Under the pieces are notes generated by a model. It had not been told where the DNA came from. It saw nothing but the letters and a program-made list of their open reading frames with translations, and searched no databases. A DNA stretch of 64,000 bases, taken from positions 1-64,000 of the forward strand of contig NW_024883107.1 in NCBI RefSeq assembly GCF_019059575.1, written 5' to 3'. The stretch's first letter is position 1. Each line of letters opens with the position of its first letter. Shown piece after piece: positions 1 through 37,300 of the stretch. A program made the translations under genes and the position numbers. This stretch comes from Amphibalanus amphitrite. Its lineage: Eukaryota; Arthropoda; Thecostraca; Balanomorpha; Balanidae.

Positions 1-307
1 ATCAGTCCATATCATCGCTTTTGTTCGGAGTCAATGATGATGATTTGGAGTGACAGGGCGCACCAGCTGCGAGGCTATGCTATCATCGACCGTTCGTTCT
101 TGCGATTTAATTTCGTCTCCCTAGTTTAGCGAAATTATGCACCCTTTCATAAGCATATTATTAATCCCCATATCCTACAGCATATTCTGCACCATTACCC
201 CGTTGACATGGGCAGTCTCTGTATGCCGGCGGACTGAGCTATATGTGCCGCAGCTGAGACGGTCTACGCTGCTCCGTCCCCCGCCCCGGCCACTGGCGGC
301 TCTGTGA

Positions 308-1655
308 CCACGGTTCGTCGGAAGGTCATCTCAGGCTCAAAAGAAACGATATATACCATTCGAAAGCTGACGGTGAGCTGAATCCAAAAATGTAATTTTT
401 ATCAAAATCGATCGATGGCCTTTTTTGAAAATTGCGTTTTTGTAAAAACTTTATAATTTTTTATTCAACGGGCTGTCCCGGACATTCTTGAAAACATAAA
501 CATGTATTTTTGAGTTCCAGTAAAAGCTGAACGCCTAAAGAACAATATTTAGCGAAGCAATATTTCCAACCATTAATATGCGTCTCCCACAGCCGACAAT
601 AAGGCGCAATTACACATCTCAATGTCACGATGGACCAAGTCAGCCACACAGAACCGTGAAATGACCCTTATCGACTCGCAGACCGGCGCTCCCGGCCCGC
701 CCACCAGCCACGGAAAGAACGTTCGCCTCTCGTTCTACTAAACAAATGTCATATTTGTCAGTTTAACTGTCTACATTGCTATTAAAGTTATTCAGGATAC
801 CTGTGAAGAAAATGCATTGTTCTGCTTGATTTACAACATGCTTTAATTTACATTTTTCTTATACATGTTTTGTTCCATCCAGCTGCGCTCAGTGCCCGCG
901 CAGGGGAAGTGAGCGGGGTTTCACCGTCAGAGGCTGTACTGGTGACAGCTGCTCGGCCGTGCGACCGGTCAAAGGTTACCCTGCCCCACCGGGCGCTACC
1001 CCCACTCTACCCGAGCTGAGGTCGGTACAACCTCTGACATTTCAGCGCGGCCAATTTTCCTTATATGGGCATGCCACCAAGCTCAATTGAGCAAAGTAGA
1101 CGTGAACAAATGCAAATTAATGCGTGGTGTGAAGATGACAGAGCAATGAATCTTCTGCTCATGTATCCTGAATAACTCAAGTACCGACTTGAATCGTTAA
1201 ACTAACAAATATGACGTCTGTTTAGTAGAACGACAGCCGAACCTCCTTGCCGTGGCCGGTCAGGCGGGCCGAGAGCGCCGGGTCTGCGAGTCGATAAGGG
1301 TCATTTCACGCTTCTGTGTGGCTGACTTTGGTCCATCGTGACACTGAGCTGTGTAATTGCGCCTTATTGTCGGCTGTGGGAGACGCATATTAATGTTTGG
1401 AAATATTGCTTCGCTAAATATTGTTCTTTAGGCGTTCAGCTTTTACTGGAACTAAAAAATACATGTTTATGTTTTCAAGAATGTCCGGGACAGCCCGTTG
1501 AATAAAAAATTATAAAGTTTTTACAAAAACGCAATTTTCAAAAAAGGCCATCGATCGATTTTGATAAAAATTACATTTTTGGATTCAGCTCACCGTCAGC
1601 TTTCGAATGGTATATATCGTTTCTTTGAGCCTGAGATGCCCTTCCGACGAACCGT
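308..1655. mobile_element. 1.35-kb fold-back element, left arm
   Basis: The ends are inverted copies of each other. CGGTTCGTCGGAAGG near 310 is mirrored near 1640, and the match runs inward for about 480 bases on each side (to about 790 and from about 1165). The outer parts look close to identical and the inner parts are clearly diverged. No coding region was recognised in the arms or in the unpaired middle. The class is unknown; a non-autonomous fold-back transposon is the simplest reading. Confidence 0.7.
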
Positions 1656-2280
1656 GTGACCGCGCGGCCCGACGCCGGCGCCTGGGACCCGTCTCCCCAC
1701 TGTAAACACACGGCCGACCTCGGCCGGCCGCAGCCAGGGGCCGCCGCCGGACCGGGGCCAGCGGATCTGGAACAGCCGGCCACCGGCGGCACTGGACGAA
1801 AACACGGCCACGGGACGAGGCCAGCGCTGGACGACATCGGGGCCTTAGTGAAGCAGCTCAGGGCCGGACAAATGTCGGACAGGCCTTAGTGAAGCAGCTC
1901 AGGGCCGGACAAATGTCGGACACCCGGGCCAGGCACCGAGTTTAATAGAACCAGGGCTGCACCGAGAGTCGGCAGTAGCCTGGAGCAGCCGGGTGTATAC
2001 CACGAACCAGCAGTTTAGCAGAGACGAACCATCAGTCTCCTCCAGTAGCTGATAACCAGAACTAGGTCACCCAGCCGCCAGTAGCAAATGGAGCAGGACC
2101 GGGTAACCTCACCATCTTTTTAGCAGCCCAGTGTTTGACAGTGGTGACCTAAAATCGCGTCCCTCAACGTCTACCAAATGGATACTGAGAGTTGAGAGTG
2201 AGAAACTCCAGTACTGCTGTCAGTGATGGCAGCAGCACGGGCGTTCTCACAATATCACCCATGTCCCATATATTACTCAC

Positions 2281-5200
2281 CGAGCCCGTGAGCCGCGCGA
2301 AGGCCTGCTTGATGAGGGCGCGCTCCTTGAATGTCCTCTTGGTGAGGATACCGATCAGGACGTCGTCGTCGACTCCGAACAGGCCGAACGCGTCGCTGTG
2401 GGAGATAATATTCAGTGTCAGACGGGGGATCAGCTATACTGAGAGGCTGGGAACAGAGGTGGGGCGAGATGACAGCGACACATGACGGGTTAGCTTACTA
2501 CGGCACAGTCCGGGTCAACTGTTAGCAATGTCACCATATTAGTCGACTGTCTCGCTGTCAGATCGCAGTCAGCTGACAGTCAGCAGTGACCCGACTCTGC
2601 TCAGCTGATTGTCGGCGGTGATATCACCTCGGTCAGCTCCCAGCGGGGGCCGACCGTGCCCGTATCAGAACAGTCCTAACATTCCTAGTTTTCCGTCGGC
2701 CAGTGTTTACGGTGGCTGTGACGAGAGGCAGGCGTCTGCGGCGGTCGAGCGGGGCCTGGTACCGACAGGACCGGCACACGTACAAACCTCCACTGCCGTC
2801 TAACATCCACTTCATACAATCTTATTCAGCGGCCCCTGACTAGGTCACACGGAGCCTACGTATAAATCGGACCCAACATTGAACACGATATTTGCTCGTA
2901 TAGGATCTTCCAGATTATGTAACGGCTGTTCTCAGCTGAACAAAAACAAACGATCGTACTCACTTCAGCGCTCTGGCGTCTCGCTCAGCGTCGAAGTACG
3001 GCGTAGGACGGAGAGCCGGCAGCACGTTGAACTGAAAAGGATTGGAAAAAATGCTAGGTTATCAGCAGTGAAATAGGAACCATTCTCGGAAGGAGCAATA
3101 CATTACTATCTCCTATGGAATATACCAACAAAATTGTTTTTTTTTTCTGGAGAGCCATCGACCCCCGTTTGCGTACCAGCGGGTTCCTCACTCAGTGAGT
3201 TACAGTGTGAGTTTCTCTCCCCTCGAGTCACCCCGTTTCTCACCTGGTGAGTGCTGGAGCAGGCGACGCTCAGCGGGTACGACTTGCAGAACCGGTACAT
3301 GTCGTACTCGATACGGTCCAGGCTGCTGGCGGGCGGACGGACCGCCGGGCCGCCCGACTGCGGACGGGAGCAACACACCTGCAGAGGGGGGGGGGGGGGG
3401 GGTCAGAGTGGCGGCCCGAACGGAGCGGGCTGAGTCAGTGTTCCGAGGATCGGTGACCTCTTTAAAGACTGACCCTCTTGACTCGTCCCCTTTTATTTAC
3501 CCGTCCCCCTTTTACTGACCCGCCCACCCCCTTATTGACCTGTCACCTTTCACTGACCTGCTCCCTTTTATTGACCCATTTAATGACCCAGCCCTATTTA
3601 CTGACCTTCCTTTCATGGACCAGTCCCTCCCTCTTTATTGACCCACACCCCTTTATAACCGACACCCCATTCCCCTGTACTCAGCGGGTACAGGTATATC
3701 ACACAGGACCCGATTCTGGCCCTGTCCACACTGACCTGAGTGCCGGGACAGGTGGGCGCGTTGACGTTGGTGTAGCGGGTGAGGATGTCCTGCTGGCGGC
3801 ACTGGTTTCCGGGCACACAGCTGCATGGCGCCGGCGGGGCCGTCGGCTGCACCTGGGCCCACGGCACCGCGCAGCACACCTGAAAACGGACAGCACAGTG
3901 TGATGGCACCGCGCAGCACACCTGAAAACAGCACGGCACAGTGTGATGGTACCGCGCAGCACACCTGAAAATGGACAGCACAGTGTGATGGCACCGCGCA
4001 ACACACCTTAAAACAGCACAGCAGAGGAGAGACCGTCAAATGTCCAACGGTCACAGCGAGGGAGCGTATGTATACGGTAATTTGCGATAAGCACCGGCGG
4101 TGAACTACCAGAGCGCCCATTAGTTATATGACAAAAATTGTCTCGCTTGGATATCACTTCACCTTTCACCTCAAACCATTTGTCACCTATCACGTCACCT
4201 TTACTATAAACCACTTCTCACCGCGGAAACTCAAGTCGCCTGTCATCTGTCACCCCATCTGTCACCTCTCACCCGTCACCTCTGAGCTCACCCGTCACCA
4301 GTCACCTCACCTGTCCGTCGTAGCTGCAGCGTCCCGTCTGCGACACCTGGCGCATGTCGACGAGCAGCTGCTGCGAGGCGCCGATCTGGCCGCCCTGGCA
4401 CAGGTACGAGGAGACGCACACGCAGGGCCGGGAGCTGGCGACGTGCGGCGCCAGCGGCGAGGAGCGGCCGGCCAGATCCAGTTCGGCGGTCGGCACAGAG
4501 GTGACCACGCCCGGCCGGAGGCCCGGAGTGGACTCCAGCTGACGGAGCACCTCCGGCGGCGTGTCACAGCACACCCGGAACCCGGAGCACTGCTTCCGGG
4601 AGCCGATACTGCCGGACGGACACAGCGTCAGTACAGACCCGGGACACAGTCAGTACAGACCCGGAACACAGAGTCAGTACAGACCCGGAACACAGTCAGT
4701 GCGGACCCAGAACACAGAACGAGCCGATACTGCAGGATGGACACGGGAGGGGAGGAATCAGTGGAGAGTAGAGACACATATATAATCACGGATAGTTACG
4801 ACACGAAATATACTTTGACTCTGAACGATGACGGTAGAGGAACACTTGCTGCTACTACTCTTACGAACTTATCTCTGCTACTACTCGCAGGTCTATATGT
4901 CTGGATGCCCGGATTAGTAAATGCTGTTCGGGCTGATGTAGGGAGACCCAGTGAAGTGTTGAAGGTCAGGTTTCACCCACCTGAAGTCTGACAGGTCAGG
5001 TTTTCCCCACCTGAAGTCGAGCAGGTCGGCGCCGTGGTGCAGCAGGTTGCCGTCCGAGCAGCGGTCGAAGCGCACGCAGACGCAGCTGTCGCCGGCCTGG
5101 GCGGCGGCGCGCGGCGTCTCGTCTCGGCCGGTGAACAGGTCGGTCCAGCCGCGCCGGTGACGCTGCGACTGCTGCGAGTAGCTGCGCCAGTAGCTAGAGC

Positions 5201-8156
5201 CCGACTCCAGCGGCGCCTGACCGGACAGATAACCGTAAGGGGGTGGATTGACGGCCTGGAAGACGTCAGAATATACAAGAAGCTCTGGCAAAGTGGCGGC
5301 TTCATGTGCCATACCAACGAGCAACGATGATCACTCAGTGGTATTTGCTACGGAGTACGGGAGCAGCACACAAAAGAACATATCTGTGGAGCATGATGGC
5401 AAAATGCCAGCCATACTTCTTAGAGTGCTGAGTCAGTGACTCGGGCGCCTCGTACTCACCGCCTGCGAGGAGTGAGAGCTGGACGAGTAGCGGTAGCTGG
5501 AGCCGCTGCCGCCCGCGGAGCCGGCTGGGTACTGGTGGGAGCCGCCGCCGGCCGGCACCAGTCCTCCCGAGGAGCCGCTCTCAGAGCGGGAGGACCAGGA
5601 GGACGAGGACCGGTAGCTCGAGCCGCTCGAGTAGCCGCCCGAGGAGCCGCCGGACAGACCCAGGTCGCCGCCCGCCAGGCCCAGGTCGCCGCCGGACAGG
5701 CCCAGGTCGCCGCCGGACAGGCCCAGTTCGCCGTCGGCGTCCCCGGACACCACGCGCCGCTCGGAGTAGTGGCGGGACGAGGTGACCGACTCGCCGCCGG
5801 AGAGGCCCGCGTCTCCGCCGGCCAGCAGGCCCGCGCCGCCGCCGCCGCCGCCGCCGCCCGAGGTGGAGTGCTGGGCCGAGTAGCGCCGGGAGGAGCTGGT
5901 CAGCTCCGGCCGGGCGCCGTGCTGGCCGCGCAGACCGGCGCCGCCGGCCAGCAGCGCTGCGTCGCCCTGCTCGCCGGACGAGGTCGAGCTGGACGAGCTG
6001 CGGTAGGAGTAGTGGCGCGAGCTGCTGGAGGAGTCCAGCTGCGGGCCCGGCAGGTCGACCGGCCGGTCCGGGTAGCGCGGGTAGCCGCCCGTGGTGGCCT
6101 GCTCGCCGCTGTCCTCTCCGGAGACGACGCGCCGCTCTGAGTAGTGTCGGCGGCTGGAGATGACCCGCGAGCCGCTCTGCTCGGCAGAGTCCTCCTTGTC
6201 CGTGTACCCGGAGCCGTGGGCGCCGGACAGCAGGTCGGCGCCGGCGCCGCCGTACCCCGAGCTGGTCCTCTCGTACGAGTGGGTGCGGCGGCTGTGGCCG
6301 GCGCTGCCGTCGGCAGGGTAGAGCGGCCGGCGCGGGTCCGCCGGCTCGGGCAGCTGCTCGCCGGAGGAGCTGCGGCTGCGGTAGCTGTAGTGGCGCGTGC
6401 TGCTCGTCTGGCCGCCGGTGACGGCCGGCAGCGGCGCGGCGCCCGAGGTCTCAGTGCGCGAGTGCTCGGTGCGGCTCACCTCGGAGCGCCGGTGGCCGCC
6501 GGAGACGTCCCTGGCGTCATCGTACCGCGAGAGCGAGCTCTGCAGGCCGCGGAGGTCGACCGGCCGCTGCACGGGCGCCCGCTCGTCCGTGTCCACGTGC
6601 TGCACAATGTCCCGGAACAGGTCGCGCTCGCGCTGCACGAAGGCCGGGTCGGGGGTGGTGTGCCGGGAGACGGGGGCCGGCGTCGGCAGCAGCGGAGCCG
6701 GCTCCGTGGCCGGCTGGTACGGCTGGGACACCAGCTGCCGCTTACAGCAGACCATCGGGCGGCGGCACTTCTGCAGGCCGGCCAGCGAAAAGTCGCGCTC
6801 GCGGTAGGAGCAGGTGTCGCGCGGCACGCAGTTGCAGGCGGGCTCCTCGCGCACCTGGGGCTCGGCCTGCGGCCGGCGCACTCGGCTCGGCTCGGTGGGC
6901 GCCGGCCGCGGGTAGTCGGTGGTCACCCGTGGCAGCAGTGGCCGCTGCTCGCGGCAGCACACCTCGTCGGCCCGGCAGCGGCTCAGCGCGGCCGCCGAGA
7001 CCACCCGGTCCGAGTACAGACATCGCGAGCGGGGCACGCAGGCGCAGCTCTCGGCGCCCTCCTCGCGGCGCGTCTCGGTGCGCTCCTCGCGGAAATATGA
7101 TGTGGAGCGGGACCCGGAGGACCCGCCGTGTGTCGGCCGCCGGCCGCCCGACCGCGAGCCGTACTCCGACTCAGCAGAGTCCGAGCCGAACTCCGAGTGG
7201 GACCGCGACCGCGAGTCGGACCGCGAGTCGAAGCGCGAGTCAGACCGCGAGTCGGACCGCGAGTCGAAGCGCGAGTCGAATCTGGCGCCGGAGCCGCGCA
7301 CGCCGTGGATGTCGAACACGTCGTCGAAGCCGCGCCCGCCGACCATGCTCTGTCGGCGCCGGTGGTACTCGGCCTCCGAGATGGTGGCGCGGTCGAGCAC
7401 GGTGCCGTCCGCGTCCCGGATCAGCTCCAGGCCGTACTCGCGCACGCCCTCGCTGTTCCGGCGGCCCGTGATGCTGGTGGTGTGCGTGCCGTTGCTGAAC
7501 GAGTAGTGCGACTCCTCGCTGGAGAAGCTGGTGGTCGAGTGCCGGCCGTGGCCGCCGCGCCGGTGCGCCAGCCGCCGTTCCATCTCCGTCAGTAGGTCCT
7601 CGCCCGAGAGACGGCGCGAGCTCAGGCCGTGCAGCTCTCCGCCGCCCAGCGACTCGAACCCGAAGCTGCCGTCGGAGCCGGTGAGGCCGAGGCTGGCGCG
7701 CCGCTGGCGGTACTCGGCCTCCGAGAGCACGGCGCTCTCGATGACGGCGCCGTCGGCCAGCCGCGTCATGCGCAGGTGGAACTGGGGCACGCCCTCGCTG
7801 GAGCGCTTGCTGGTGATGGTGGTGCTGTGCGTGCCGTTGCTGAACGTGTACTCGGACTCCTCGCTGGAGAAGTGGTAGGTGCGCCGCTGGCCGCCGCCGC
7901 TGCGGCCGAGCAGGCCGGGCCGGTAGCGCGGCGCCAGCTGGCCGGAACTCGTGTAGCGACTGCTGTGGGAGGAGGTGCGGTAGCCGCCGCCGCCGCCCGA
8001 GTGACCCCCGCCGCTGCCGCAGATGTCACAGCCCTGGTCGCCGCCGGCCGCGGCCCAGTCGGGCTGGCCGCCGACCAGCACCGTGCGGAACCTGTCCGCG
8101 GCGACCGGCGCCGTCAGCGCCGCCGCCACCGCCAGACAGGCCACCAGCGCGCGCAT
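2281..8156 (-). CDS. Clip-domain annexin, exons 1-7 (left arm, 5' part of gene)
   Basis: Exons on the minus strand, each with GT-AG borders: 5460-8156, 5011-5255, 4311-4608, 3736-3879, 3244-3378, 2964-3031 and 2281-2395. Phases agree at every junction. Exon 1 (899 codons) is open throughout in this arm. It starts with a signal peptide (residues 1 to about 20), then a Gly/Ser-rich stretch, two copies of a roughly 63-residue module (about 91-153 and 205-268), an RSDS-type run (about 293-321), clip-like knots at about 371-401 and 441-471, and a long Ser/Tyr/Arg/Gly-rich tail. Exons 2-5 add three more knots, and exons 6-7 begin annexin repeat 1. The remaining annexin exons would lie before position 1 if the palindrome extends that far. 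Exon borders are convincing; protein function is inferred from domains only. Confidence 0.85.
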
Positions 8157-8280
8157 CGCTCTCCGAGGGGCCGGGGAGGGTCAGTCCAGTCCAGTGCAGT
8201 CCAGTCACACACACTGCTGCCACCGAGCGCCGCTGGAGGTCGGCGAACCGACTGGTGTGTGCCCCGGCGGCCACGGCCCT

Positions 8281-8288
8281 CTATATAG
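8281..8288 (-). promoter_or_regulatory. TATA box of clip-annexin, left arm
   Basis: CTATATAG on the minus strand, about 125 bases upstream of the ATG at 8156. A CCAGTCGG initiator-like motif lies about 30 bases downstream. The matching site in the right arm is at about 28529-28536. Confidence 0.6.
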
Positions 8289-10502
8289 CCGCGGAAATAT
8301 AAACACAGCGGGCGAGACGGACGGTGGCAGGAGCCAGGGACGGGACGGCACGGGCTGGCGCGTACGCAGCTCATTAGCTGCCAAATATCATTGGCCACTA
8401 GCTACACTGCTGCAGTGGCAGCAGCATCGCCATCTTCAGAAGCTTCAGCGGAAACGGCTGGGGCACCGAAGAAGTTTCAGTTGCACTTGCGGATCAAAAT
8501 GCATTGCATTTTGCGGTACCCATTCAAAGACACAGTCATCCGAGCTGTCATCAAACTATTCTATCACTGCCGGATCTTGTGCCAGATTGGCCGATTGCGG
8601 AGCCACCGGCGGTAAGTTAATGACGTCATGGAGTAAATTCATGGAATATTGGATGACGGCACGAGATGTTTTCGCACTGTCGGGTAGATTTCCTGAAACG
8701 TCGCTCACTCCGATCTGTCGAATGGTTCAACTGTGAACGTCAGCCTCCGGTGACCTCTATAAAGGTCAATGGCATACATTCATCACCGTCGGAATCACAT
8801 CAGCCTCTGAGCAAATGGCTGGTCCACCAATGGTAGCGATTGGCGAACGTAGTCGTGTGGGGCATGGACTCTTAACACTCGCAGAGCAGCATCACCAACA
8901 TCACACCGACTGCCTAATGGAAGAAAACTGGCGAGGATGGAAGCAGCCTGCAGAGGGATTCCTTAATTCTTAAGTAGGATATGAACAGCCACTGGGACTC
9001 CCAGCGAGACGGAAGGGCACGCCGCCCGATGAGGTAGGACGCCTGAGACCGTACATACATGTAGAGTACGAATGTCACGTATCTGCGTCGTCCGTTTTTT
9101 TCTGTTTACATAGAAGCACGGTCAGCCCAGTCCCCTCACTCCCCCCCCCCTCCCTTGGTGGTCGGCGCTGGCCGCCGAGTCATAGGTCATGATAATGATT
9201 CAGAGCCCCCACCCTCCTCCGGCCAGGGGTGTCAACGTCCGTGACAAACCCATGGATGGCTCGTGACAGTGATGGCAGCGACCCCAGAGGACTGCCAAGG
9301 GTTTCGTAACAGCCAGGTGGGCGTGGGCTCGGCGACCTTTCCGCTGCCGCTGCAGCCTCTCTGGGGAGGGGAGGAAAGGCTGAGGGTAATTGCGCAGTGC
9401 GCACACTGCACACTGCACAGGGTGGACGGCTCTTGCTCAATAGCAGCTGAAACAACATCCGTCCGTAGAAAGCCATAGCCACAAACTATTAAAAATCCCA
9501 TGTCATATAGACCTTCACATTTCACATCAAAGCACAGTTGCCTTTTACGGATCATAGCACGTACATTTTGGGTCTACTAGGAGAGTGCAGTGAGCACACT
9601 CCTTTGCACATTTTGCAAACACCTATGTGAGACGTAAGTACGTTGTCTGAGCATCCGTTTCGGCGAGTTTTGCCTTGTATACTTTGGCGGTGTGGATTTT
9701 CCACTCTAGCGCCACTGGAGGCCGTATGAGCTGCCGCCGTACCGTCCGGCACGTGCCGAGTATCTCTCTCAGTTGTTTTGACTGGTCCCGGAGCCCCGGT
9801 GACGTCAGCACGCGACTGTTTCTTCTCGTGGCCAAACCGCTGCGTCAGGCGGCGATACACCACAGGCGGTTCCCGGAGTCGGTGCCACTTGGGCACAGCG
9901 CGACTTGGGGTATGTATACCGCCGCATAGTTCATCCACAGACTTTCCATGTCATAGCCCCAAGCCAATGTGTAGAATTTCGACATTCTATAGAATCCCTA
10001 GACATTCTCTTAAATGCCTGGACGACCAGCTATCCCTCTAAACGACCAGGCATTTTGAATGCCTAAGCGTTCTGTAGAATGCCTGGTCGTCCAGGCATTC
10101 TATGGACTGAGTAGGCAGTCTGTGGAATGCCTAATATTCAGGCATTCTACTCTATGGAATGCCTCAGGAGCCGAGTTAGACGGGGGGCGTGAAGACGCCA
10201 TCCCCCCCCTCGTACACCACGGAAAAACTTAGACCACCAGGACGGCGTGGGCTAAAAACACATCGGCTAACCAGCCACTTTTTGCTGAAGGGCCCGTAAC
10301 TTCTGGTCTCTGGTCGAGGGCACAGCGAATCTTATTTTGAAAGTGCAAATGTCCGTCCAAGCGACGATTCACTTCTGAAAGGACAGCGCGCAGTAAAACA
10401 GGAAACTCTCCATCCTGTTTTACCAAAAATTTAAATCGGACAAGCCAAACACATTTTAAAATGTCAACATATTTTTCAGCGTTTACGATTCTAGGAGCGG
10501 AC
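8289..10502. other. Upstream region between the two divergent genes, left arm
   Basis: Apart from the octamer cluster near 10 kb I see no gene. The open frames here (the longest 128 codons at 9552-9938 on the minus strand and 92 codons at 10229-10507) have no recognisable domain, signal or splice context. A C run at 9143-9152 and the hairpin GGGGGCGTGAAGACGCCATCCCCC near 10182 are the only other structures. Mirror copy at about 26310-28530. Confidence 0.6.
9967..10170. repeat. Cluster of AGGCATTC / GAATGCCT octamers, left arm
   Basis: About 200 bases hold repeated copies of this octamer and close variants in both orientations, some joined as perfect inverted pairs around GGTCGTCC. Neighbouring variants include GACATTCT and TAGAATCC. 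Mirror copy at about 26650-26850. It lies 400 bases upstream of the peptide gene. Purpose unknown. Confidence 0.65.
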
Positions 10503-10556
10503 GACACAGGGGTGACCTATGGGGCACCATTTTGACAGTTCAGGCCGCTATAAAAA
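10503..10556 (+). promoter_or_regulatory. Promoter of the cysteine-rich peptide gene
   Basis: TATAAAAA at 10549-10556, 37 bases before the ATG. GACACAGGGGTGACCTATGG lies just upstream at 10503-10522. The same block precedes the decayed second copy at 11779, where it is itself duplicated, which marks it as the likely control region. Confidence 0.6.
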
Positions 10557-10592
10557 CAGGCTGGGGGCCGACGAGGCTCAGAACAAACAACC

Positions 10593-11150
10593 ATGAAGTT
10601 GGTCTTCCTTCTACCGGTGCTGGCACTTCTATGTGCCACGCTGCGTGAGTATATACCTATAATATAGTGTGGTTATTTCATGGGCAGTTAGTTGTTGTAG
10701 GTACGCTGTAAAAGATGACTGCGTAAACAAATAATTCATGTATGTAGCGTCGTTTTGTCGGTAAAATTTCATTTGTGTGATGTATAATTATAGTTCTGGT
10801 GATAACAACAGAAATCATGTTCTCAGCAATGTGTGCAGCTCTGTTTCTGTGTGCGTTTACTTCGGTGAATATGAGCACTAATTTAGTGCAAATACTCAAT
10901 TGCAGAATCGGCGAGCGCGTGGCAGTGCCCCCGTCACCACATAATTTACCTACGGACCTACAAGACATCGGCCAGCGCCAGCAAGTGCTACTGCTCCCGG
11001 CCGGGCTGGAAGTGCTGTCCCACCAAATGGGGATACATGTGCCTGCCCGTCTGTAAGCCCTACACACACTGGAAGATCAGGTGTCCCAAATACAAGCACC
11101 GCTGCGGACTGGTCACCCAAACCAAACACTGGTACTCCAGATGCTTCTGA
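10593..11150 (+). CDS. Small cysteine-rich cationic secreted peptide, left arm
   Basis: Two exons, 10593-10644 and 10906-11150, joined by a GTGAGT donor and a TTGCAG acceptor, give 98 residues. Exon 1 encodes a hydrophobic signal (MKLVFLLPVLALLCATL); the mature part starts around the SASAW stretch. The mature chain has ten cysteines, including CYC and CC pairs, and contains 9 Lys and 6 Arg but no Asp or Glu, so it is strongly basic. It ends CF. A TATA box lies at 10549 and AATAAA at 11312. Neither exon is long enough to stand out as an open frame by itself. I do not recognise the family. An antimicrobial or structural disulfide-rich peptide is a guess from charge and cysteines. It is divergent from the clip-annexin gene, with 2.4 kb between start codons. 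Confidence 0.8.
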
Positions 11151-11311
11151 ACGTCACACGGCTTCGAATACCGGGGGAAGGACGGCGCAGGGAGAAGACG
11201 AGCCCGAGACCCATCGTCCGGAGCAGGGGGAATCACGCACAGCTTTATATCACAACCCTATCCGAACCAGGCTTTGTCAGACATGACATCTTCGTTTCTC
11301 CTCCAGTTCGT

Positions 11312-11317
11312 AATAAA
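11312..11317 (+). terminator. Poly(A) signal of the cysteine-rich peptide gene
   Basis: AATAAA 162 bases after the TGA stop at 11148-11150, right distance for a short 3' UTR. Confidence 0.6.
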
Positions 11318-11644
11318 TGCACAATGTACCTACCAAAGCAACGAGTAAAGCTCTCGTGACCTGTATATTTGGCTTATGAAGAAACAATGCAATATAATTT
11401 CGCTGGGGAACGACTGTTTCATGGGTTAAAGATCTGAGGTGGAATCATCGGCCCACTGAATTGGAGCCGAGGGAATGGACATTCGACGGTTACCCCGGCA
11501 TAGGTACCTATACCTACGTCCTACTGTCTTCGCTATCCCCATCGGAAGCTTACTGCTTGATCAAGACCACAAACTATTTTTTGTCCGTACAAAAAAGGGG
11601 CTATGCAGAAATCGTATATCTACCCACCACTCAGTTTCGAAAAG

Positions 11645-11862
11645 CTCGGACAAGTCAAACATATTTTCAAATGCCAACATATTTTCATCCGCTCACGAAC
11701 CTAAGAGCGGGCGACACAGGGGTGACCTATGGGACACAGGGGTGACCTATGGGGCATCATTTTGACAGTTCAGACCACTATAAAAACAGGCTGGGGGCCG
11801 GCGTAACTCAGAACAATCAACGAAGTTGGTCTTCCTTTTAGCGCTTCTATGCGCCACACTGC
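11645..11862 (+). pseudogene. Decayed tandem copy of the cysteine-rich peptide gene, left arm
   Basis: Promoter and first exon of the peptide gene are repeated 1.2 kb downstream: the upstream block (two copies of the GACACAGGGGTGACCTATGG region), TATAAAA at 11779, the leader, and a signal-peptide exon ending at a GTGAGC donor at 11863. The start codon is lost by a 3-base deletion (CCATGAAG is reduced to CGAAG) and a further 9 bases are missing from the signal region. No cysteine-rich second exon is recognisable downstream. Confidence 0.75.
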
Positions 11863-13294: not shown

Positions 13295-14047
13295 TTAACC
13301 CTCGCTGGACGCCGCCACAGGGGGGGGGGGGGAGGGGGTATGCAACTATCCACTAAGGTTTTTCGCGAATAACTCGCGTATAAAGCGGCCGATCGCGACG
13401 AAACTTTCAGTCCCTCGCATTGATCAATTTTACACCTACCCTGAAAATTTCATGACCTTGACCCAAATGACCTTTGACCTGTGACCTACTTTCCGAGACC
13501 ATGTTGGGCCGGAATCGCGATTCGGCGTATGTCGGCTCGCATTGGCCGCGCGTTTGCAGTCTTTTCGTGGTTTTATGCGTTCAAACATGGGATATGATGT
13601 TGCTCCCATGCATTAGGGTGGGTGTCAAGGTCATCGGAAGTTCAGGTCAGGCCATTGACCTTTGGTGACCTCGGTCCACTTTTTCGAGTTTTACATGTTT
13701 CTAGGCTAGTTTTTGGAGCTGAGTTCGAATTTAGCAACCATTTGAACATTTACGAAGTAGTGTTGGTGCCTCCGTAACATGTTACAAAGCTGTCAGAGGC
13801 GGTTGACACGTATTACGAATACCCGTCACGACCCCTACTGGTTGACCTGACCTGACCTGACCCGACCTGGTCTAAATACCCAATGACATCATCTGTGATC
13901 AAAACTAACACGATATTCGTGATCGGCACCCCGGGAAAACCCCATAGCAGCCACACTTAACGACTTTCTAATAGGTCCCGATTTTCCCGACTTCTGGGTC
14001 ATTGATCCCAGGGACTGACCTAGGAGGTCAATCGATGACCTAGGACC

Positions 14048-24955: not shown

Positions 24956-25173
24956 GCAGTGTGGCGCATAGAAGCGCTAAAAGGAAGACCAACTTCGTTG
25001 ATTGTTCTGAGTTACGCCGGCCCCCGCCTGTTTTTATAGTGGTCTGAACTGTCAAAATGATGCCCCATAGGTCACCCCTGTGTCCCATAGGTCACCCCTG
25101 TGTCGCCCGCTCTTAGGTTCGTGAGCGGATGAAAATATGTTGGCATTTGAAAATATGTTTGACTTGTCCGAGC
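24956..25173 (-). pseudogene. Decayed tandem copy of the cysteine-rich peptide gene, right arm
   Basis: Mirror copy of 11645-11862 with the same lost start codon. The TATA region is at about 25032-25038. One extra base is missing relative to the left arm near 25026. Confidence 0.7.
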
Positions 25174-25666
25174 TTTTCGAAACTGAGTGGTGGGTAGATA
25201 TACGATTTCTGCATAGCCCCTTTTTTGTACGGACAAAAAATAGTTTGTGGTCTTGATCAAGCAGTAAGCTTCCGATGGGGATAGCGAAGACAGTAGGACG
25301 TAGGTATAGGTACCTATGCCGGGGTAACCGTCGAATGTCCATTCCCTCGGCTCCAATTCAGTGGGCCGATGATTCCACCTCAGATCTTTAACCCATGAAA
25401 CAGTCGTTCCCCAGCGAAATTATATTGCATTGTTTCTTCATAAGCCAAATATACAGGTCACGAGAGCTTTACTCGTTGCTTTGGTAGGTACATTGTGCAT
25501 TTATTACGAACTGGAGGAGAAACGAAGATGTCATGTCTGACAAAGCCTGGTTCGGATAGGGTTGTGATATAAAGCTGTGCGTGATTCCCCCTGCTCCGGA
25601 CGATGGGTCTCGGGCTCGTCTTCTCCCTGCGCCGTCCTTCCCCCGGTATTCGAAGCCGTGTGACGT

Positions 25667-26224
25667 TCAGAAGCATCTGGAGTACCAGTGTTTGGTTTGG
25701 GTGACCAGTCCGCAGCGGTGCTTGTATTTGGGACACCTGATCTTCCAGTGTGTGTAGGGCTTACAGACGGGCAGGCACATGTATCCCCATTTGGTGGGAC
25801 AGCACTTCCAGCCCGGCCGGGAGCAGTAGCACTTGCTGGCGCTGGCCGATGTCTTGTAGGTCCGTAGGTAAATTATGTGGTGACGGGGGCACTGCCACGC
25901 GCTCGCCGATTCTGCAATTGAGTATTTGCACTAAATTAGTGCTCATATTCACCGAAGTAAACGCACACAGAAACAGAGCTGCACACATTGCTGAGAACAT
26001 GATTTCTGTTGTTATCACCAGAACTATAATTATACATCACACAAATGAAATTTTACCGACAAAACGACGCTACATACATGAATTATTTGTTTACGCAGTC
26101 ATCTTTTACAGCGTACCTACAACAACTAACTGCCCATGAAATAACCACACTATATTATAGGTATATACTCACGCAGCGTGGCACATAGAAGTGCCAGCAC
26201 CGGTAGAAGGAAGACCAACTTCAT
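25667..26224 (-). CDS. Small cysteine-rich cationic secreted peptide, right arm
   Basis: Mirror copy: exon 1 at 26173-26224 and exon 2 at 25667-25911 on the minus strand, apparently identical in coding sequence to the left-arm gene (98 residues, ten cysteines in the mature part, no acidic residue). TATA box near 26262-26268 and poly(A) signal near 25500-25505, both read on the minus strand. Confidence 0.8.
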
Positions 26225-28528
26225 GGTTGTTTGTTCTGAGCCTCGTCGGCCCCCAGCCTGTTTTTATAGCGGCCTGAACTGTCAAAATGGTGCCCCATAG
26301 GTCACCCCTGTGTCGTCCGCTCCTAGAATCGTAAACGCTGAAAAATATGTTGACATTTTAAAATGTGTTTGGCTTGTCCGATTTAAATTTTTGGTAAAAC
26401 AGGATGGAGAGTTTCCTGTTTTACTGCGCGCTGTCCTTTCAGAAGTGAATCGTCGCTTGGACGGACATTTGCACTTTCAAAATAAGATTCGCTGTGCCCT
26501 CGACCAGAGACCAGAAGTTACGGGCCCTTCAGCAAAAAGTGGCTGGTTAGCCGATGTGTTTTTAGCCCACGCCGTCCTGGTGGTCTAAGTTTTTCCGTGG
26601 TGTACGAGGGGGGGGATGGCGTCTTCACGCCCCCCGTCTAACTCGGCTCCTGAGGCATTCCATAGAGTAGAATGCCTGAATATTAGGCATTCCACAGACT
26701 GCCTACTCAGTCCATAGAATGCCTGGACGACCAGGCATTCTACAGAACGCTTAGGCATTCAAAATGCCTGGTCGTTTAGAGGGATAGCTGGTCGTCCAGG
26801 CATTTAAGAGAATGTCTAGGGATTCTATAGAATGTCGAAATTCTACACATTGGCTTGGGGCTATGACATGGAAAGTCTGTGGATGAACTATGCGGCGGTA
26901 TACATACCCCAAGTCGCGCTGTGCCCAAGTGGCACCGACTCCGGGAACCGCCTGTGGTGTATCGCCGCCTGACGCAGCGGTTTGGCCACGAGAAGAAACA
27001 GTCGCGTGCTGACGTCACCGGGGCTCCGGGACCAGTCAAAACAACTGAGAGAGATACTCGGCACGTGCCGGACGGTACGGCGGCAGCTCATACGGCCTCC
27101 AGTGGCGCTAGAGTGGAAAATCCACACCGCCAAAGTATACAAGGCAAAACTCGCCGAAACGGATGCTCAGACAACGTACTTACGTCTCACATAGGTGTTT
27201 GCAAAATGTGCAAAGGAGTGTGCTCACTGCACTCTCCTAGTAGACCCAAAATGTACGTGCTATGATCCGTAAAAGGCAACTGTGCTTTGATGTGAAATGT
27301 GAAGGTCTATATGACATGGGATTTTTAATAGTTTGTGGCTATGGCTTTCTACGGACGGATGTTGTTTCAGCTGCTATTGAGCAAGAGCCGTCCACCCTGT
27401 GCAGTGTGCAGTGTGCGCACTGCGCAATTACCCTCAGCCTTTCCTCCCCTCCCCAGAGAGGCTGCAGCGGCAGCGGAAAGGTCGCCGAGCCCACGCCCAC
27501 CTGGCTGTTACGAAACCCTTGGCAGTCCTCTGGGGTCGCTGCCATCACTGTCACGAGCCATCCATGGGTTTGTCACGGACGTTGACACCCCTGGCCGGAG
27601 GAGGGTGGGGGCTCTGAATCATTATCATGACCTATGACTCGGCGGCCAGCGCCGACCACCAAGGGAGGGGGGGGGGAGTGAGGGGACTGGGCTGACCGTG
27701 CTTCTATGTAAACAGAAAAAAACGGACGACGCAGATACGTGACATTCGTACTCTACATGTATGTACGGTCTCAGGCGTCCTACCTCATCGGGCGGCGTGC
27801 CCTTCCGTCTCGCTGGGAGTCCCAGTGGCTGTTCATATCCTACTTAAGAATTAAGGAATCCCTCTGCAGGCTGCTTCCATCCTCGCCAGTTTTCTTCCAT
27901 TAGGCAGTCGGTGTGATGTTGGTGATGCTGCTCTGCGAGTGTTAAGAGTCCATGCCCCACACGACTACGTTCGCCAATCGCTACCATTGGTGGACCAGCC
28001 ATTTGCTCAGAGGCTGATGTGATTCCGACGGTGATGAATGTATGCCATTGACCTTTATAGAGGTCACCGGAGGCTGACGTTCACAGTTGAACCATTCGAC
28101 AGATCGGAGTGAGCGACGTTTCAGGAAATCTACCCGACAGTGCGAAAACATCTCGTGCCGTCATCCAATATTCCATGAATTTACTCCATGACGTCATTAA
28201 CTTACCGCCGGTGGCTCCGCAATCGGCCAATCTGGCACAAGATCCGGCAGTGATAGAATAGTTTGATGACAGCTCGGATGACTGTGTCTTTGAATGGGTA
28301 CCGCAAAATGCAATGCATTTTGATCCGCAAGTGCAACTGAAACTTCTTCGGTGCCCCAGCCGTTTCCGCTGAAGCTTCTGAAGATGGCGATGCTGCTGCC
28401 ACTGCAGCAGTGTAGCTAGTGGCCAATGATATTTGGCAGCTAATGAGCTGCGTACGCGCCAGCCCGTGCCGTCCCGTCCCTGGCTCCTGCCACCGTCCGT
28501 CTCGCCCGCTGTGTTTATATTTCCGCGG

Positions 28529-28536
28529 CTATATAG
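28529..28536 (+). promoter_or_regulatory. TATA box of clip-annexin, right arm
   Basis: CTATATAG within CGCGGCTATATAGAGGG, followed after about 30 bases by CACCAGTCGG, a plausible arthropod initiator, and by the ATG at 28661. It implies a 5' UTR of roughly 95-100 bases. Confidence 0.6.
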
Positions 28537-28660
28537 AGGGCCGTGGCCGCCGGGGCACACACCAGTCGGTTCGCCGACCTCCAGCGGCGCTCGGTGGCAG
28601 CAGTGTGTGTGACTGGACTGCACTGGACTGGACTGACCCTCCCCGGCCCCTCGGAGAGCG

Positions 28661-31358
28661 ATGCGCGCGCTGGTGGCCTGTCTGGCGGTGGCGGCGGCGC
28701 TGACGGCGCCGGTCGCCGCGGACAGGTTCCGCACGGTGCTGGTCGGCGGCCAGCCCGACTGGGCCGCGGCCGGCGGCGACCAGGGCTGTGACATCTGCGG
28801 CAGCGGCGGGGGTCACTCGGGCGGCGGCGGCGGCTACCGCACCTCCTCCCACAGCAGTCGCTACACGAGTTCCGGCCAGCTGGCGCCGCGCTACCGGCCC
28901 GGCCTGCTCGGCCGCAGCGGCGGCGGCCAGCGGCGCACCTACCACTTCTCCAGCGAGGAGTCCGAGTACACGTTCAGCAACGGCACGCACAGCACCACCA
29001 TCACCAGCAAGCGCTCCAGCGAGGGCGTGCCCCAGTTCCACCTGCGCATGACGCGGCTGGCCGACGGCGCCGTCATCGAGAGCGCCGTGCTCTCGGAGGC
29101 CGAGTACCGCCAGCGGCGCGCCAGCCTCGGCCTCACCGGCTCCGACGGCAGCTTCGGGTTCGAGTCGCTGGGCGGCGGAGAGCTGCACGGCCTGAGCTCG
29201 CGCCGTCTCTCGGGCGAGGACCTACTGACGGAGATGGAACGGCGGCTGGCGCACCGGCGCGGCGGCCACGGCCGGCACTCGACCACCAGCTTCTCCAGCG
29301 AGGAGTCGCACTACTCGTTCAGCAACGGCACGCACACCACCAGCATCACGGGCCGCCGGAACAGCGAGGGCGTGCGCGAGTACGGCCTGGAGCTGATCCG
29401 GGACGCGGACGGCACCGTGCTCGACCGCGCCACCATCTCGGAGGCCGAGTACCACCGGCGCCGACAGAGCATGGTCGGCGGGGCGCGGCTTCGACGACGT
29501 GTTCGACATCCACGGCGTGCGCGGCTCCGGCGCCAGATTCGACTCGCGCTTCGACTCGCGGTCCGACTCGCGGTCTGACTCGCGCTTCGACTCGCGGTCC
29601 GACTCGCGGTCGCGGTCCCACTCGGAGTTCGGCTCGGACTCTGCTGAGTCGGAGTACGGCTCGCGGTCGGGCGGCCGGCGGCCGACACACGGCGGGTCCT
29701 CCGGGTCCCGCTCCACATCATATTTCCGCGAGGAGCGCACCGAGACGCGCCGCGAGGAGGGCGCCGAGAGCTGCGCCTGCGTGCCCCGCTCGCGATGTCT
29801 GTACTCGGACCGGGTGGTCTCGGCGGCCGCGCTGAGCCGCTGCCGGGCCGACGAGGTGTGCTGCCGCGAGCAGCGGCCACTGCTGCCACGGGTGACCACC
29901 GACTACCCGCGGCCGGCGCCCACCGAGCCGAGCCGAGTGCGCCGGCCGCAGGCCGAGCCCCAGGTGCGCGAGGAGCCCGCCTGCAACTGCGTGCCGCGCG
30001 ACACCTGCTCCTACCGCGAGCGCGACTTTTCGCTGGCCGGCCTGCAGAAGTGCCGCCGCCCGATGGTCTGCTGTAAGCGGCAGCTGGTGTCCCAGCCGTA
30101 CCAGCCGGCCACGGAGCCGGCTCCGCTGCTGCCGACGCCGGCCCCCGTCTCCCGGCACACCACCCCCGACCCGGCCTTCGTGCAGCGCGAGCGCGACCTG
30201 TTCCGGGACATTGTGCAGCACGTGGACACGGACGAGCGGGCGCCCGTGCAGCGGCCGGTCGACCTCCGCGGCCTGCAGAGCTCGCTCTCGCGGTACGATG
30301 ACGCCAGGGACGTCTCCGGCGGCCACCGGCGCTCCGAGGTGAGCCGCACCGAGCACTCGCGCACTGAGACCTCGGGCGCCGCGCCGCTGCCGGCCGTCAC
30401 CGGCGGCCAGACGAGCAGCACGCGCCACTACAGCTACCGCAGCCGCAGCTCCTCCGGCGAGCAGCTGCCCGAGCCGGCGGACCCGCGCCGGCCGCTCTAC
30501 CCTGCCGACGGCAGCGCCGGCCACAGCCGCCGCACCCACTCGTACGAGAGGACCAGCTCGGGGTACGGCGGCGCCGGCGCCGACCTGCTGTCCGGCGCCC
30601 ACGGCTCCGGGTACACGGACAAGGAGGACTCTGCCGAGCAGAGCGGCTCGCGGGTCATCTCCAGCCGCCGACACTACTCAGAGCGGCGCGTCGTCTCCGG
30701 AGAGGACAGCGGCGAGCAGGCCACCACGGGCGGCTACCCGCGCTACCCGGACCGGCCGGTCGACCTGCCGGGCCCGCAGCTGGACTCCTCCAGCAGCTCG
30801 CGCCACTACTCCTACCGCAGCTCGTCCAGCTCGACCTCGTCCGGCGAGCAGGGCGACGCAGCGCTGCTGGCCGGCGGCGCCGGTCTGCGCGGCCAGCACG
30901 GCGCCCGGCCGGAGCTGACCAGCTCCTCCCGGCGCTACTCGGCCCAGCACTCCACCTCGGGCGGCGGCGGCGGCGGCGGCGGCGCGGGCCTGCTGGCCGG
31001 CGGAGACGCGGGCCTCTCCGGCGGCGAGTCGGTCACCTCGTCCCGCCACTACTCCGAGCGGCGCGTGGTGTCCGGGGACGCCGACGGCGAACTGGGCCTG
31101 TCCGGCGGCGACCTGGGCCTGTCCGGCGGCGACCTGGGCCTGGCGGGCGGCGACCTGGGTCTGTCCGGCGGCTCCTCGGGCGGCTACTCGAGCGGCTCGA
31201 GCTACCGGTCCTCGTCCTCCTGGTCCTCCCGCTCTGAGAGCGGCTCCTCGGGAGGACTGGTGCCGGCCGGCGGCGGCTCCCACCAGTACCCAGCCGGCTC
31301 CGCGGGCGGCAGCGGCTCCAGCTACCGCTACTCGTCCAGCTCTCACTCCTCGCAGGCG
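28661..31358 (+). CDS. Exon 1 of clip-annexin, right arm (frameshifted)
   Basis: The ATG follows a TATA box by about 125 bases and opens a secretory signal (MRALVACLAV then an Ala-rich core, likely cut near Ala20). Reading is open to about codon 274, where GGCGGG in the left arm is GGCGGGG here; the frame is restored in the +1 register from 29499 to the donor at 31359. The Ser/Gly-rich C-terminal half contains repeated HYSYR and GLSGGDL units. Codons are strongly GC-ending, which is why long antisense frames lie opposite. Confidence 0.85.
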
Positions 31359-34300
31359 GTGAGTACGAGGCGCCCGAGTCACTGACTCAGCACTCTAAGA
31401 AGTATGGCTGGCATTTTGCCATCATGCTCCACAGATATGTTCTTTTGTGTGCTGCTCCCGTACTCCGTAGCAAATACCACTGAGTGATCATCGTTGCTCG
31501 TTGGTATGGCACATGAAGCCGCCACTTTGCCAGAGCTTCTTGTATATTCTGACGTCTTCCAGGCCGTCAATCCACCCCCTTACGGTTATCTGTCCGGTCA
31601 GGCGCCGCTGGAGTCGGGCTCTAGCTACTGGCGCAGCTACTCGCAGCAGTCGCAGCGTCACCGGCGCGGCTGGACCGACCTGTTCACCGGCCGAGACGAG
31701 ACGCCGCGCGCCGCCGCCCAGGCCGGCGACAGCTGCGTCTGCGTGCGCTTCGACCGCTGCTCGGACGGCAACCTGCTGCACCACGGCGCCGACCTGCTCG
31801 ACTTCAGGTGGGGAAAACCTGACCTGTCAGACTTCAGGTGGGTGAAACCTGACCTTCAACACTTCACTGGGTCTCCCTACATCAGCCCGAACAGCATTTA
31901 CTAATCCGGGCATCCAGACATATAGACCTGCGAGTAGTAGCAGAGATAAGTTCGTAAGAGTAGTAGCAGCAAGTGTTCCTCTACCGTCATCGTTCAGAGT
32001 CAAAGTATATTTCGTGTCGTAACTATCCGTGATTATATATGTGTCTCTACTCTCCACTGATTCCTCCCCTCCCGTGTCCATCCTGCAGTATCGGCTCGTT
32101 CTGTGTTCTGGGTCCGCACTGACTGTGTTCCGGGTCTGTACTGACTCTGTGTTCCGGGTCTGTACTGACTGTGTCCCGGGTCTGTACTGACGCTGTGTCC
32201 GTCCGGCAGTATCGGCTCCCGGAAGCAGTGCTCCGGGTTCCGGGTGTGCTGTGACACGCCGCCGGAGGTGCTCCGTCAGCTGGAGTCCACTCCGGGCCTC
32301 CGGCCGGGCGTGGTCACCTCTGTGCCGACCGCCGAACTGGATCTGGCCGGCCGCTCCTCGCCGCTGGCGCCGCACGTCGCCAGCTCCCGGCCCTGCGTGT
32401 GCGTCTCCTCGTACCTGTGCCAGGGCGGCCAGATCGGCGCCTCGCAGCAGCTGCTCGTCGACATGCGCCAGGTGTCGCAGACGGGACGCTGCAGCTACGA
32501 CGGACAGGTGAGGTGACTGGTGACGGGTGAGCTCAGAGGTGACGGGTGAGAGGTGACAGATGGGGTGACAGATGACAGGCGACTTGAGTTTCCGCGGTGA
32601 GAAGTGGTTTATAGTAAAGGTGACGTGATAGGTGACAAATGGTTTGAGGTGAAAGGTGAAGTGATATCCAAGCGAGACAATTTTTGTCATATAACTAATG
32701 GGCGCTCTGGTAGTTCACCGCCGGTGCTTATCGCAAATTACCGTATACATACGCTCCCTCGCTGTGACCGTTGGACATTTGACGGTCTCTCCTCTGCTGT
32801 GCTGTTTTAAGGTGTGTTGCGCGGTGCCATCACACTGTGCTGTCCATTTTCAGGTGTGCTGCGCGGTACCATCACACTGTGCCGTGCTGTTTTCAGGTGT
32901 GCTGCGCGGTGCCATCACACTGTGCTGTCCGTTTTCAGGTGTGCTGCGCGGTGCCGTGGGCCCAGGTGCAGCCGACGGCCCCGCCGGCGCCATGCAGCTG
33001 TGTGCCCGGAAACCAGTGCCGCCAGCAGGACATCCTCACCCGCTACACCAACGTCAACGCGCCCACCTGTCCCGGCACTCAGGTCAGTGTGGACAGGGCC
33101 AGAATCGGGTCCTGTGTGATATACCTGTACCCGCTGAGTACAGGGGAATGGGGTGTCGGTTATAAAGGGGTGTGGGTCAATAAAGAGGGAGGGACTGGTC
33201 CATGAAAGGAAGGTCAGTAAATAGGGCTGGGTCATTAAATGGGTCAATAAAAGGGAGCAGGTCAGTGAAAGGTGACAGGTCAATAAGGGGGTGGGCGGGT
33301 CAGTAAAAGGGGGACGGGTAAATAAAAGGGGACGAGTCAAGAGGGTCAGTCTTTAAAGAGGTCACCGATCCTCGGAACACTGACTCAGCCCGCTCCGTTC
33401 GGGCCGCCACTCTGACCCCCCCCCCCCCCCCCCTCTGCAGGTGTGTTGCTCCCGTCCGCAGTCGGGCGGCCCGGCGGTCCGTCCGCCCGCCAGCAGCCTG
33501 GACCGTATCGAGTACGACATGTACCGGTTCTGCAAGTCGTACCCGCTGAGCGTCGCCTGCTCCAGCACTCACCAGGTGAGAAACGGGGTGACTCGAGGGG
33601 AGAGAAACTCACACTGTAACTCACTGAGTGAGGAACCCGCTGGTACGCAAACGGGGGTCGATGGCTCTCCAGAAAAAAAAAACAATTTTGTTGGTATATT
33701 CCATAGGAGATAGTAATGTATTGCTCCTTCCGAGAATGGTTCCTATTTCACTGCTGATAACCTAGCATTTTTTCCAATCCTTTTCAGTTCAACGTGCTGC
33801 CGGCTCTCCGTCCTACGCCGTACTTCGACGCTGAGCGAGACGCCAGAGCGCTGAAGTGAGTACGATCGTTTGTTTTTGTTCAGCTGAGAACAGCCGTTAC
33901 ATAATCTGGAAGATCCTATACGAGCAAATATCGTGTTCAATGTTGGGTCCGATTTATACGTAGGCTCCGTGTGACCTAGTCAGGGGCCGCTGAATAAGAT
34001 TGTATGAAGTGGATGTTAGACGGCAGTGGAGGTTTGTACGTGTGCCGGTCCTGTCGGTACCAGGCCCCGCTCGACCGCCGCAGACGCCTGCCTCTCGTCA
34101 CAGCCACCGTAAACACTGGCCGACGGAAAACTAGGAATGTTAGGACTGTTCTGATACGGGCACGGTCGGCCCCCGCTGGGAGCTGACCGAGGTGATATCA
34201 CCGCCGACAATCAGCTGAGCAGAGTCGGGTCACTGCTGACTGTCAGCTGACTGCGATCTGACAGCGAGACAGTCGACTAATATGGTGACATTGCTAACAG

Positions 34301-37300
34301 TTGACCCGGACTGTGCCGTAGTAAGCTAACCCGTCATGTGTCGCTGTCATCTCGCCCCACCTCTGTTCCCAGCCTCTCAGTATAGCTGATCCCCCGTCTG
34401 ACACTGAATATTATCTCCCACAGCGACGCGTTCGGCCTGTTCGGAGTCGACGACGACGTCCTGATCGGTATCCTCACCAAGAGGACATTCAAGGAGCGCG
34501 CCCTCATCAAGCAGGCCTTCGCGCGGCTCACGGGCTCGGTGAGTAATATATGGGACATGGGTGATATTGTGAGAACGCCCGTGCTGCTGCCATCACTGAC
34601 AGCAGTACTGGAGTTTCTCACTCTCAACTCTCAGTATCCATTTGGTAGACGTTGAGGGACGCGATTTTAGGTCACCACTGTCAAACACTGGGCTGCTAAA
34701 AAGATGGTGAGGTTACCCGGTCCTGCTCCATTTGCTACTGGCGGCTGGGTGACCTAGTTCTGGTTATCAGCTACTGGAGGAGACTGATGGTTCGTCTCTG
34801 CTAAACTGCTGGTTCGTGGTATACACCCGGCTGCTCCAGGCTACTGCCGACTCTCGGTGCAGCCCTGGTTCTATTAAACTCGGTGCCTGGCCCGGGTGTC
34901 CGACATTTGTCCGGCCCTGAGCTGCTTCACTAAGGCCTGTCCGACATTTGTCCGGCCCTGAGCTGCTTCACTAAGGCCCCGATGTCGTCCAGCGCTGGCC
35001 TCGTCCCGTGGCCGTGTTTTCGTCCAGTGCCGCCGGTGGCCGGCTGTTCCAGATCCGCTGGCCCCGGTCCGGCGGCGGCCCCTGGCTGCGGCCGGCCGAG
35101 GTCGGCCGTGTGTTTACAGTGGGGAGACGGGTCCCAGGCGCCGGCGTCGGGCCGCGCGGTCACACGGTTCGTCGGAAGGGCATCTCAGGCTCAAAAGAAA
35201 CGATATATACCATTCGAAAGCTGACGGTGAGCTGAATCCAAAAATGTAATTTTTATCAAAATCGATCGATGGCCTTTTTTGAAAATTGCGTTTTTGTAAA
35301 AACTTTATAATTTTTTATTCAACGGGCTGTCCCGGACATTCTTGAAAACATAAACATGTATTTTTTAGTTCCAGTAAAAGCTGAACGCCTAAAGAACAAT
35401 ATTTAGCGAAGCAATATTTCCAAACATTAATATGCGTCTCCCACAGCCGACAATAAGGCGCAATTACACAGCTCAGTGTCACGATGGACCAAAGTCAGCC
35501 ACACAGAAGCGTGAAATGACCCTTATCGACTCGCAGACCCGGCGCTCTCGGCCCGCCTGACCGGCCACGGCAAGGAGGTTCGGCTGTCGTTCTACTAAAC
35601 AGACGTCATATTTGTTAGTTTAACGATTCAAGTCGGTACTTGAGTTATTCAGGATACATGAGCAGAAGATTCATTGCTCTGTCATCTTCACACCACGCAT
35701 TAATTTGCATTTGTTCACGTCTACTTTGCTCAATTGAGCTTGGTGGCATGCCCATATAAGGAAAATTGGCCGCGCTGAAATGTCAGAGGTTGTACCGACC
35801 TCAGCTCGGGTAGAGTGGGGGTAGCGCCCGGTGGGGCAGGGTAACCTTTGACCGGTCGCACGGCCGAGCAGCTGTCACCAGTACAGCCTCTGACGGTGAA
35901 ACCCCGCTCACTTCCCCTGCGCGGGCACTGAGCGCAGCTGGATGGAACAAAACATGTATAAGAAAAATGTAAATTAAAGCATGTTGTAAATCAAGCAGAA
36001 CAATGCATTTTCTTCACAGGTATCCTGAATAACTTTAATAGCAATGTAGACAGTTAAACTGACAAATATGACATTTGTTTAGTAGAACGAGAGGCGAACG
36101 TTCTTTCCGTGGCTGGTGGGCGGGCCGGGAGCGCCGGGTCTGCGAGTCGATAAGGGTCATTTCACGGTTCTGTGTGGCTGACTTTGGTCCATCGTGACAT
36201 TGAGATGTGTAATTGCGCCTTATTGTCGGCTGTGGGAGACGCATATTAATGGTTGGAAATATTGCTTCGCTAAATATTGTTCTTTAGGCGTTCAGCTTTT
36301 ACTGGAACTCAAAAATACATGTTTATGTTTTCAAGAATGTCCGGGACAGCCCGTTGAATAAAAAATTATAAAGTTTTTACAAAAACGCAATTTTCAAAAA
36401 AGGCCATCGATCGATTTTGATAAAAATTACATTTTTGGATTCAGCTCACCGTCAGCTTTCGAATGGTATATATCGTTTCTTTTGAGCCTGAGATGACCTT
36501 CCGACGAACCGTGGTCACAGAGCCGCCAGTGGCCGGGGCGGGGGACGGAGCAGCGTAGACCGTCTCAGCTGCGGCACATATAGCTCAGTCCGCCGGCATA
36601 CAGAGACTGCCCATGTCAACGGGGTAATGGTGCAGAATATGCTGTAGGATATGGGGATTAATAATATGCTTATGAAAGGGTGCATAATTTCGCTAAACTA
36701 GGGAGACGAAATTAAATCGCAAGAACGAACGGTCGATGATAGCATAGCCTCGCAGCTGGTGCGCCCTGTCACTCCAAATCATCATCATTGACTCCGAACA
36801 AAAGCGATGATATGGACTGATCGCCAGCCCGTCTTCTGATGCCATCAACTCTAGACCGCGTCAACCTACTGACACCAATTGATGATGTTTGATCTGTGTC
36901 TCACACATCTGACGTGTTGTGCCGCAGAACCTGGCGGACAAGATCGAGAGGTACTCGACGGGCAACTACGAGGACCTGATGGTGGAGCTGCTGGACGGCG
37001 CCTCCATGGAGGAGTACCTGGCCAAGCGGCTGCACGAGGGTATGGACCGGCTGGGCACCGACGAAGACGTGGTGCTCGAGACACTCATCAGCAGCACCAA
37101 CCAGGAGATCGCCGCCATCAAACCCTACTTCTACGCAGGTCGGTGGACCAGAGATAAAACCCCAATTCTATGCAAGTCGGTGGCGAGGCGGTCAGGGAAT
37201 CGTTCGCTGTCTCTGACGCTAGGTGCCGTCTGGTCCACCATCACATGCAATATTGGTTAGCTCATGCGTATCCTGGGACTTACAGACGCGTCTGTACAGA

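Follow-up and report, generated by a model that had tools for sequence, protein, structure and literature searches.

Features of the locus

The window, by which we mean the whole stretch of 64,000 bases that was analyzed, corresponds to bases 1-64000 of an Amphibalanus amphitrite contig (C1610; 137,595 bp) in an assembly of 807,550,619 bases and 2,644 contigs. The features discussed below are as follows, with the basis of each in parentheses.

1..18431, minus strand: left arm of a palindrome, an inverted copy of 18435-36821 that starts at contig base 1 (arm alignment and contig start).
18373..18443, plus strand: native end segment of a repeated element that has inverted ends; it includes the hairpin G12-TGG-TTG-CCA-C6 (element copies).
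18432..18434, no strand: TTG loop, both the palindrome centre and the loop of the native hairpin in the repeated element (sequence and native copies).
18435..36821, plus strand: right arm, joined to the remaining contig and collinear from 24876 with a second contig, C1212 (alignments).
18486..24209, plus strand: multi-copy repeat region carrying the element, unmatched in the part of C1212 examined (genome and C1212 searches).
28637..31382, plus strand: long open stretch, located upstream of the weak CLIP-domain matches listed next and interrupted near 29480 by an extra G (reading frames).
31488..32513, plus strand: two stretches with weak CLIP_1 matches of 24.7 and 20.1 bits, the Pfam cut-off being 26 (Pfam).
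About 34386..39506, plus strand: Annexin-repeat exons on both sides of 36821, collinear in C1212 (Pfam).

The mirrored counterpart of the long open stretch in the left arm (5436-8180, minus strand) forms an uninterrupted stop-to-stop frame of 915 codons; a Pfam search with it found no family at E 0.01. An internal repeat (~76%) pairs 28909-29118 with 29255-29463, inside the open stretch upstream of the CLIP-like stretches. Four of the five Annexin pieces score above the Pfam cut-off, the fifth reaching 23.8 against a cut-off of 25. The original prediction had raised the prospect of a doubled gene dosage at this locus. We find no support for it, because the contig starts before the left arm could include a counterpart of those annexin exons that lie from ~36913 onward; judged from the sequence, the annexin part in the left arm is truncated. 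Elsewhere in the window there are a tandem repeat with a period of ~25 bases (50022-50573) and two simple CT-repeat arrays (41278-41465 and 48451-48671).

Extent and centre of the palindrome

A BLASTN comparison of the window with itself returns a single inverted match, which pairs 1-36821 with 36821-1. The alignment is 36,879 columns long at 99.66% and contains 11 mismatches and 94 gap openings. This bears out the earlier description of a palindrome of at least 36.8 kb with arms of ~18.4 kb, and the centre proposed at 18433 with a 3-base spacer is likewise right. The loop TTG (18432-18434) lies between TGG and CCA, a run of 12 G occupies 18417-18428 and one of six C 18438-18443, and the loop is enclosed by a native inverted repeat of 9 bases per side. 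When the centre is omitted, the left and right arms align over 18,422 columns with 0 substitutions and 47 indel events, in agreement with the earlier statement that they are alike apart from small indels. The 94 gap openings of the self-match are these 47 indels counted twice, and its 11 mismatches arise because the 15 central bases (18423-18437) are laid ungapped on themselves, 12 G facing six C (an accounting made by eye).

The palindrome had been thought to run out of the window on the left. This was wrong: base 1 of the window is base 1 of the contig, and the palindrome therefore reaches the contig start, with no outer flank in the assembly. The position at a contig end decides nothing by itself, because the same picture would result if the assembler had broken a real palindrome of greater length; the contig stops at the arm, and a broken assembly could conceal a flank of the second arm.

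Differences between the arms

The 47 indels were judged against homologous loci elsewhere in the assembly, which side with the left arm at 33 of them, with the right arm at five and with neither at nine. Each locus voted through its best match alone, and some loci lie on the same contig or overlap (for example L003/L034, L007/L033), so that the votes are not independent; no vote was taken from loci of C1610, from one C1280 locus that was a duplicate or from the duplicate loci of C1212. The base is absent from the right arm at 38 of the 47. Because the homologues mostly side with the left arm, the differences resemble consensus errors. From the sequence they look like errors lying mostly in the right arm and mainly at 18470-25026, a stretch within ~6.6 kb of the centre that holds 42 of the 47 indels (binomial P ~4e-14 against an even spread). 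This cluster nearly coincides with the repeat region (18.5 to ~24.9 kb), and distance from the centre is thus confounded with repeat content.

The polarity is not absolute. Three of the five indels that favour the right arm are in C-runs; the other two, at right-arm positions 18770 and 18785 (gaps in the left arm), each went to the right arm by 9 votes to 0, and the left arm is therefore not itself error-free. At all five indels past 25.1 kb it is the left arm that is shorter, the homologues deciding for the left arm at two and for neither at three. The extra G near 29480 that interrupts the 915-codon open stretch in the right arm is one case in which the sole homologue judged backs the left arm. 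The original prediction had placed the differences, as indels of 1-2 bases, in sequence runs. The size was right for 46 of 47 (the exception is a CCC), but only 28 of the 47 are in runs of at least three bases.

Divergence elsewhere in the assembly is mostly by substitution. Between the right arm and C1212 there are 502 mismatches and 156 gap openings in 9,738 columns (summed over matches of at least 100 bp, each column entered only once), and the longest inverted pair in a repeat array on another contig, C2620, differs by 62 substitutions and 25 gap openings, as against 0 and 47 between the arms. At the C1212 share, a run of 47 indels without a substitution would have a chance of ~4e-30, by a simple calculation that assumes independent events. 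A real duplication, unless extremely young, would be expected to show differences in both arms, substitutions among them; what is found is no substitution at all and indels that the homologues divide 33/5/9.

Four short contigs were searched for comparable structures in their first 8 kb, with matches up to 250 bp (contig against itself) and up to 150 bp (against the arm) omitted from the listings. C2640 and C2600 have no inverted match, and C2580 has only ones of ~110 bases or less. In C2620 (L044, L047, L048) long inverted matches extend to its base 1. Over its whole 20 kb (matches up to 800 bp omitted), this contig is a tandem and inverted array with units of several kilobases that differ mainly by substitutions. 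Given the substitutions and gap openings of its longest pair, it differs in kind from the window and serves as a contrast.

A divergent second copy

C1212 is a contig of 211,549 bases, the first 26 kb of which were compared with the window. It follows the right arm from window position 24876, past 36821 and on to ~43.7 kb, in order and unmirrored, at ~77-96% identity in pieces of at least 150 columns (matches of at least 60 bp considered; at least 50 bp and 40 bp in two other comparisons). There are insertions on either side, and 6.2 kb of C1212 is unmatched near window 27.8-28.0 kb. The matches that flank 36821 are 230 bases apart in C1212 and 235 in the window. A genome search with arm region 28000-33500 returned only the two arms and C1212, plus two short matches (69 and 50 bases). 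For the junction at 35900-38900, the matches are to the window itself, to the left arm as far as contig base 1 and to many copies of a repeat over the first 0.6 kb; C1212 is not among the best 40 of 1301 candidates scored there, though the direct comparison does match it. Because the annexin exons span 36821 and C1212 is collinear there, the true order is likely to be that of the right arm followed by the right flank.

C1212 carries a second, divergent copy of the locus, either the other allele or a paralogue. We set aside its use as proof of another allele, since it could be a paralogue.

C1212 stops short of the palindrome centre, and its first 2.2 kb are without a match in the window. Most of C1212:1-2260 is a repeat present on many contigs (best 40 of 1014 candidates scored), for which reason a search through it did not find the true left neighbour of the locus. 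Nor was any contig with the true continuation beyond the centre found in the assembly.

One further difference between the two contigs concerns a smaller piece of the right arm. Window 35165-36510 is an insertion of ~1.35 kb with ~550-bp inverted ends (91-92% alike) that is missing from C1212. Some 10 bases of C1212 (18323-18332) match both edges of the insertion, as for a target-site duplication, and at least 37 other contigs carry a ~0.6-kb piece of the insertion.

The hairpin and its repeated element

The palindrome turns exactly at the hairpin that is native to the repeated element, with the loop TTG (CAA on the opposite strand). Copies of the element on C1210 and C226 are ~0.9 kb long with inverted ends. 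All eight copies read (six printed loci, C1210 and C226) continue beyond the hairpin into the body of the element, two of the six printed copies being in reverse with only a few bases visible past the hairpin; the window folds back at this point. Two pieces of the element's continuation have no exact string in the window on either strand. Copy counts from the genome searches are lower bounds, the best 40 of 5087, 7295, 1014, 357 and 1301 candidates having been scored. With the hairpin region (18368-18492) as query, 39 other places were scored (best 40 of 357), and the longest single match at any of them covers at most 84 of the 125 bases; the two mirrored halves are therefore matched together at none of the 39.

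When the stretch from C1210 is folded as DNA, its overall stability is no higher than that of shuffled sequences (z 0.08) and the short hairpin appears in both the minimum-energy and the centroid structures. Hairpin stability is no evidence in this case.

The element in the window (18373) and the one in C226 (L030, ~765-1670) appear to occupy one and the same position in copies of a shared host repeat, but they run in opposite directions; this points to two independent insertion events. The C226 element has TTAA at either edge.

Origin of the palindrome

The original prediction left open whether the palindrome is a young duplication or an artefact. The contig end, the polarized indels, the native hairpin and the unmirrored C1212 favour the latter, and we put at roughly 0.93 the probability that a fold-back artefact at the contig end, and not a real gene duplication, produced the palindrome. 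The left arm would then most likely be the redundant half of the fold-back. The genomic locus would be single, running from the right flank through the right-arm sequence into the body of the element past the centre, which the contig does not reach. A strand whose end lay in the hairpin's C-run would have snapped back on its own G-run, with TTG as the loop. Copying of the folded strand, during library preparation or sequencing, would have produced a molecule holding the forward sequence followed by its reverse complement; by an alternative route, the assembler would have made an equivalent turn in its graph. Such a fold-back molecule would have been retained by the assembler at the left end of the contig. 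Polishing reads from the single locus could map to either arm, and near the centre would mostly have mapped to the left one, which would leave residual indels in the right arm there. The lack of substitutions does not by itself speak for an artefact, since a real but very recent duplication overlaid by sequencing noise would show it as well.

The geometry is that of fold-back artefact reads from long-read sequencing. Heinz, Meyerson and Li (2026, PMC12870357) describe these as near-perfect palindromes with almost no spacer, whose second half falls at the same place on the opposite strand, within 200 bp; typically fewer than half have more than 11 bases separating the halves. In the window, too, the arms are inverted copies of each other, with only the 3-base TTG between the halves. 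Two differences from the published reads are that the structure here is an assembled contig end and not a read, and that it turns at a native hairpin. The same authors give fold-back reads as ~0.55-0.6% of Nanopore genomic reads and report virtually none in PacBio genomic data (PMC12870357), which counts against an artefact, depending on the platform used here.

Within the artefact explanation, a smaller part of the probability goes to a pure turn in the assembly graph, in which the assembler linked the contig to its reverse complement and no fold-back molecule was involved. The near-identical arms and the contig end would be expected of it, and the native 9-base inverted repeat flanking the loop offers a turning point, but a turn placed exactly in a 3-base hairpin loop is simpler as a copied strand. 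A share lower again goes to fold-back during whole-genome amplification or to a missed SMRTbell adapter, both of which PMC6218980 names as sources of palindromic long reads. The same paper also ties inverted duplications in an assembly to palindromic reads. Palindromic chimeras of amplification, as described there, have in common with the window an inverted self-copy of a stretch. A loop of 3 bases leaves no room for an adapter. There is no adapter remnant at the centre, and the adapter core has no exact match in the window, though an adapter that was wholly lost would leave no trace.

Native hairpins can seed fold-backs in vivo as well. Hairpin-primed fold-back inversions, which are real rearrangements, start from a short inverted repeat with a small loop that comes to lie at the centre of a large palindrome. 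The window shares this geometry, but the evidence here points to a single-copy locus. We weighed a real and very young inverted duplication with arms of 18.4 kb or more, made in vivo when a break in the element was followed by hairpin-primed fold-back. The arms without a substitution would suit such an event, as would a centre at a native hairpin able to act in this way. Against it stand the indels mostly polarized against one arm, the missing outer flank, the single occurrence of the arm region in C1212 and the truncated second gene copy. We regard this duplication as highly improbable, and a real duplication with an effect on gene dosage was judged less likely than an artefact.

A compact native palindromic element, its two ends face to face, would account for the centre alone, which does have an end of the repeated element on each side, but it is disfavoured to the point of being negligible: none of the 39 other scored places (best 40 of 357) has both mirrored ends, and the mirroring out to 36821 would be left unexplained.

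Implications

Taken at face value, the contig would yield a report of a recent gene-bearing palindrome. The fold-back reading makes it instead a worked case of how a fold-back contig end can be judged without reads, from the contig start, from indels polarized by homologues and from a native hairpin. It is very unlikely that a real palindrome of at least 37 kb, germ-line or somatic, was primed by the G-run hairpin of the element end; if true, the many-copy element family would be a genome-wide palindrome seed in this organism. On the fold-back artefact that we prefer, the G-run hairpin of the element could be the seed of more false palindromes in the same assembly.
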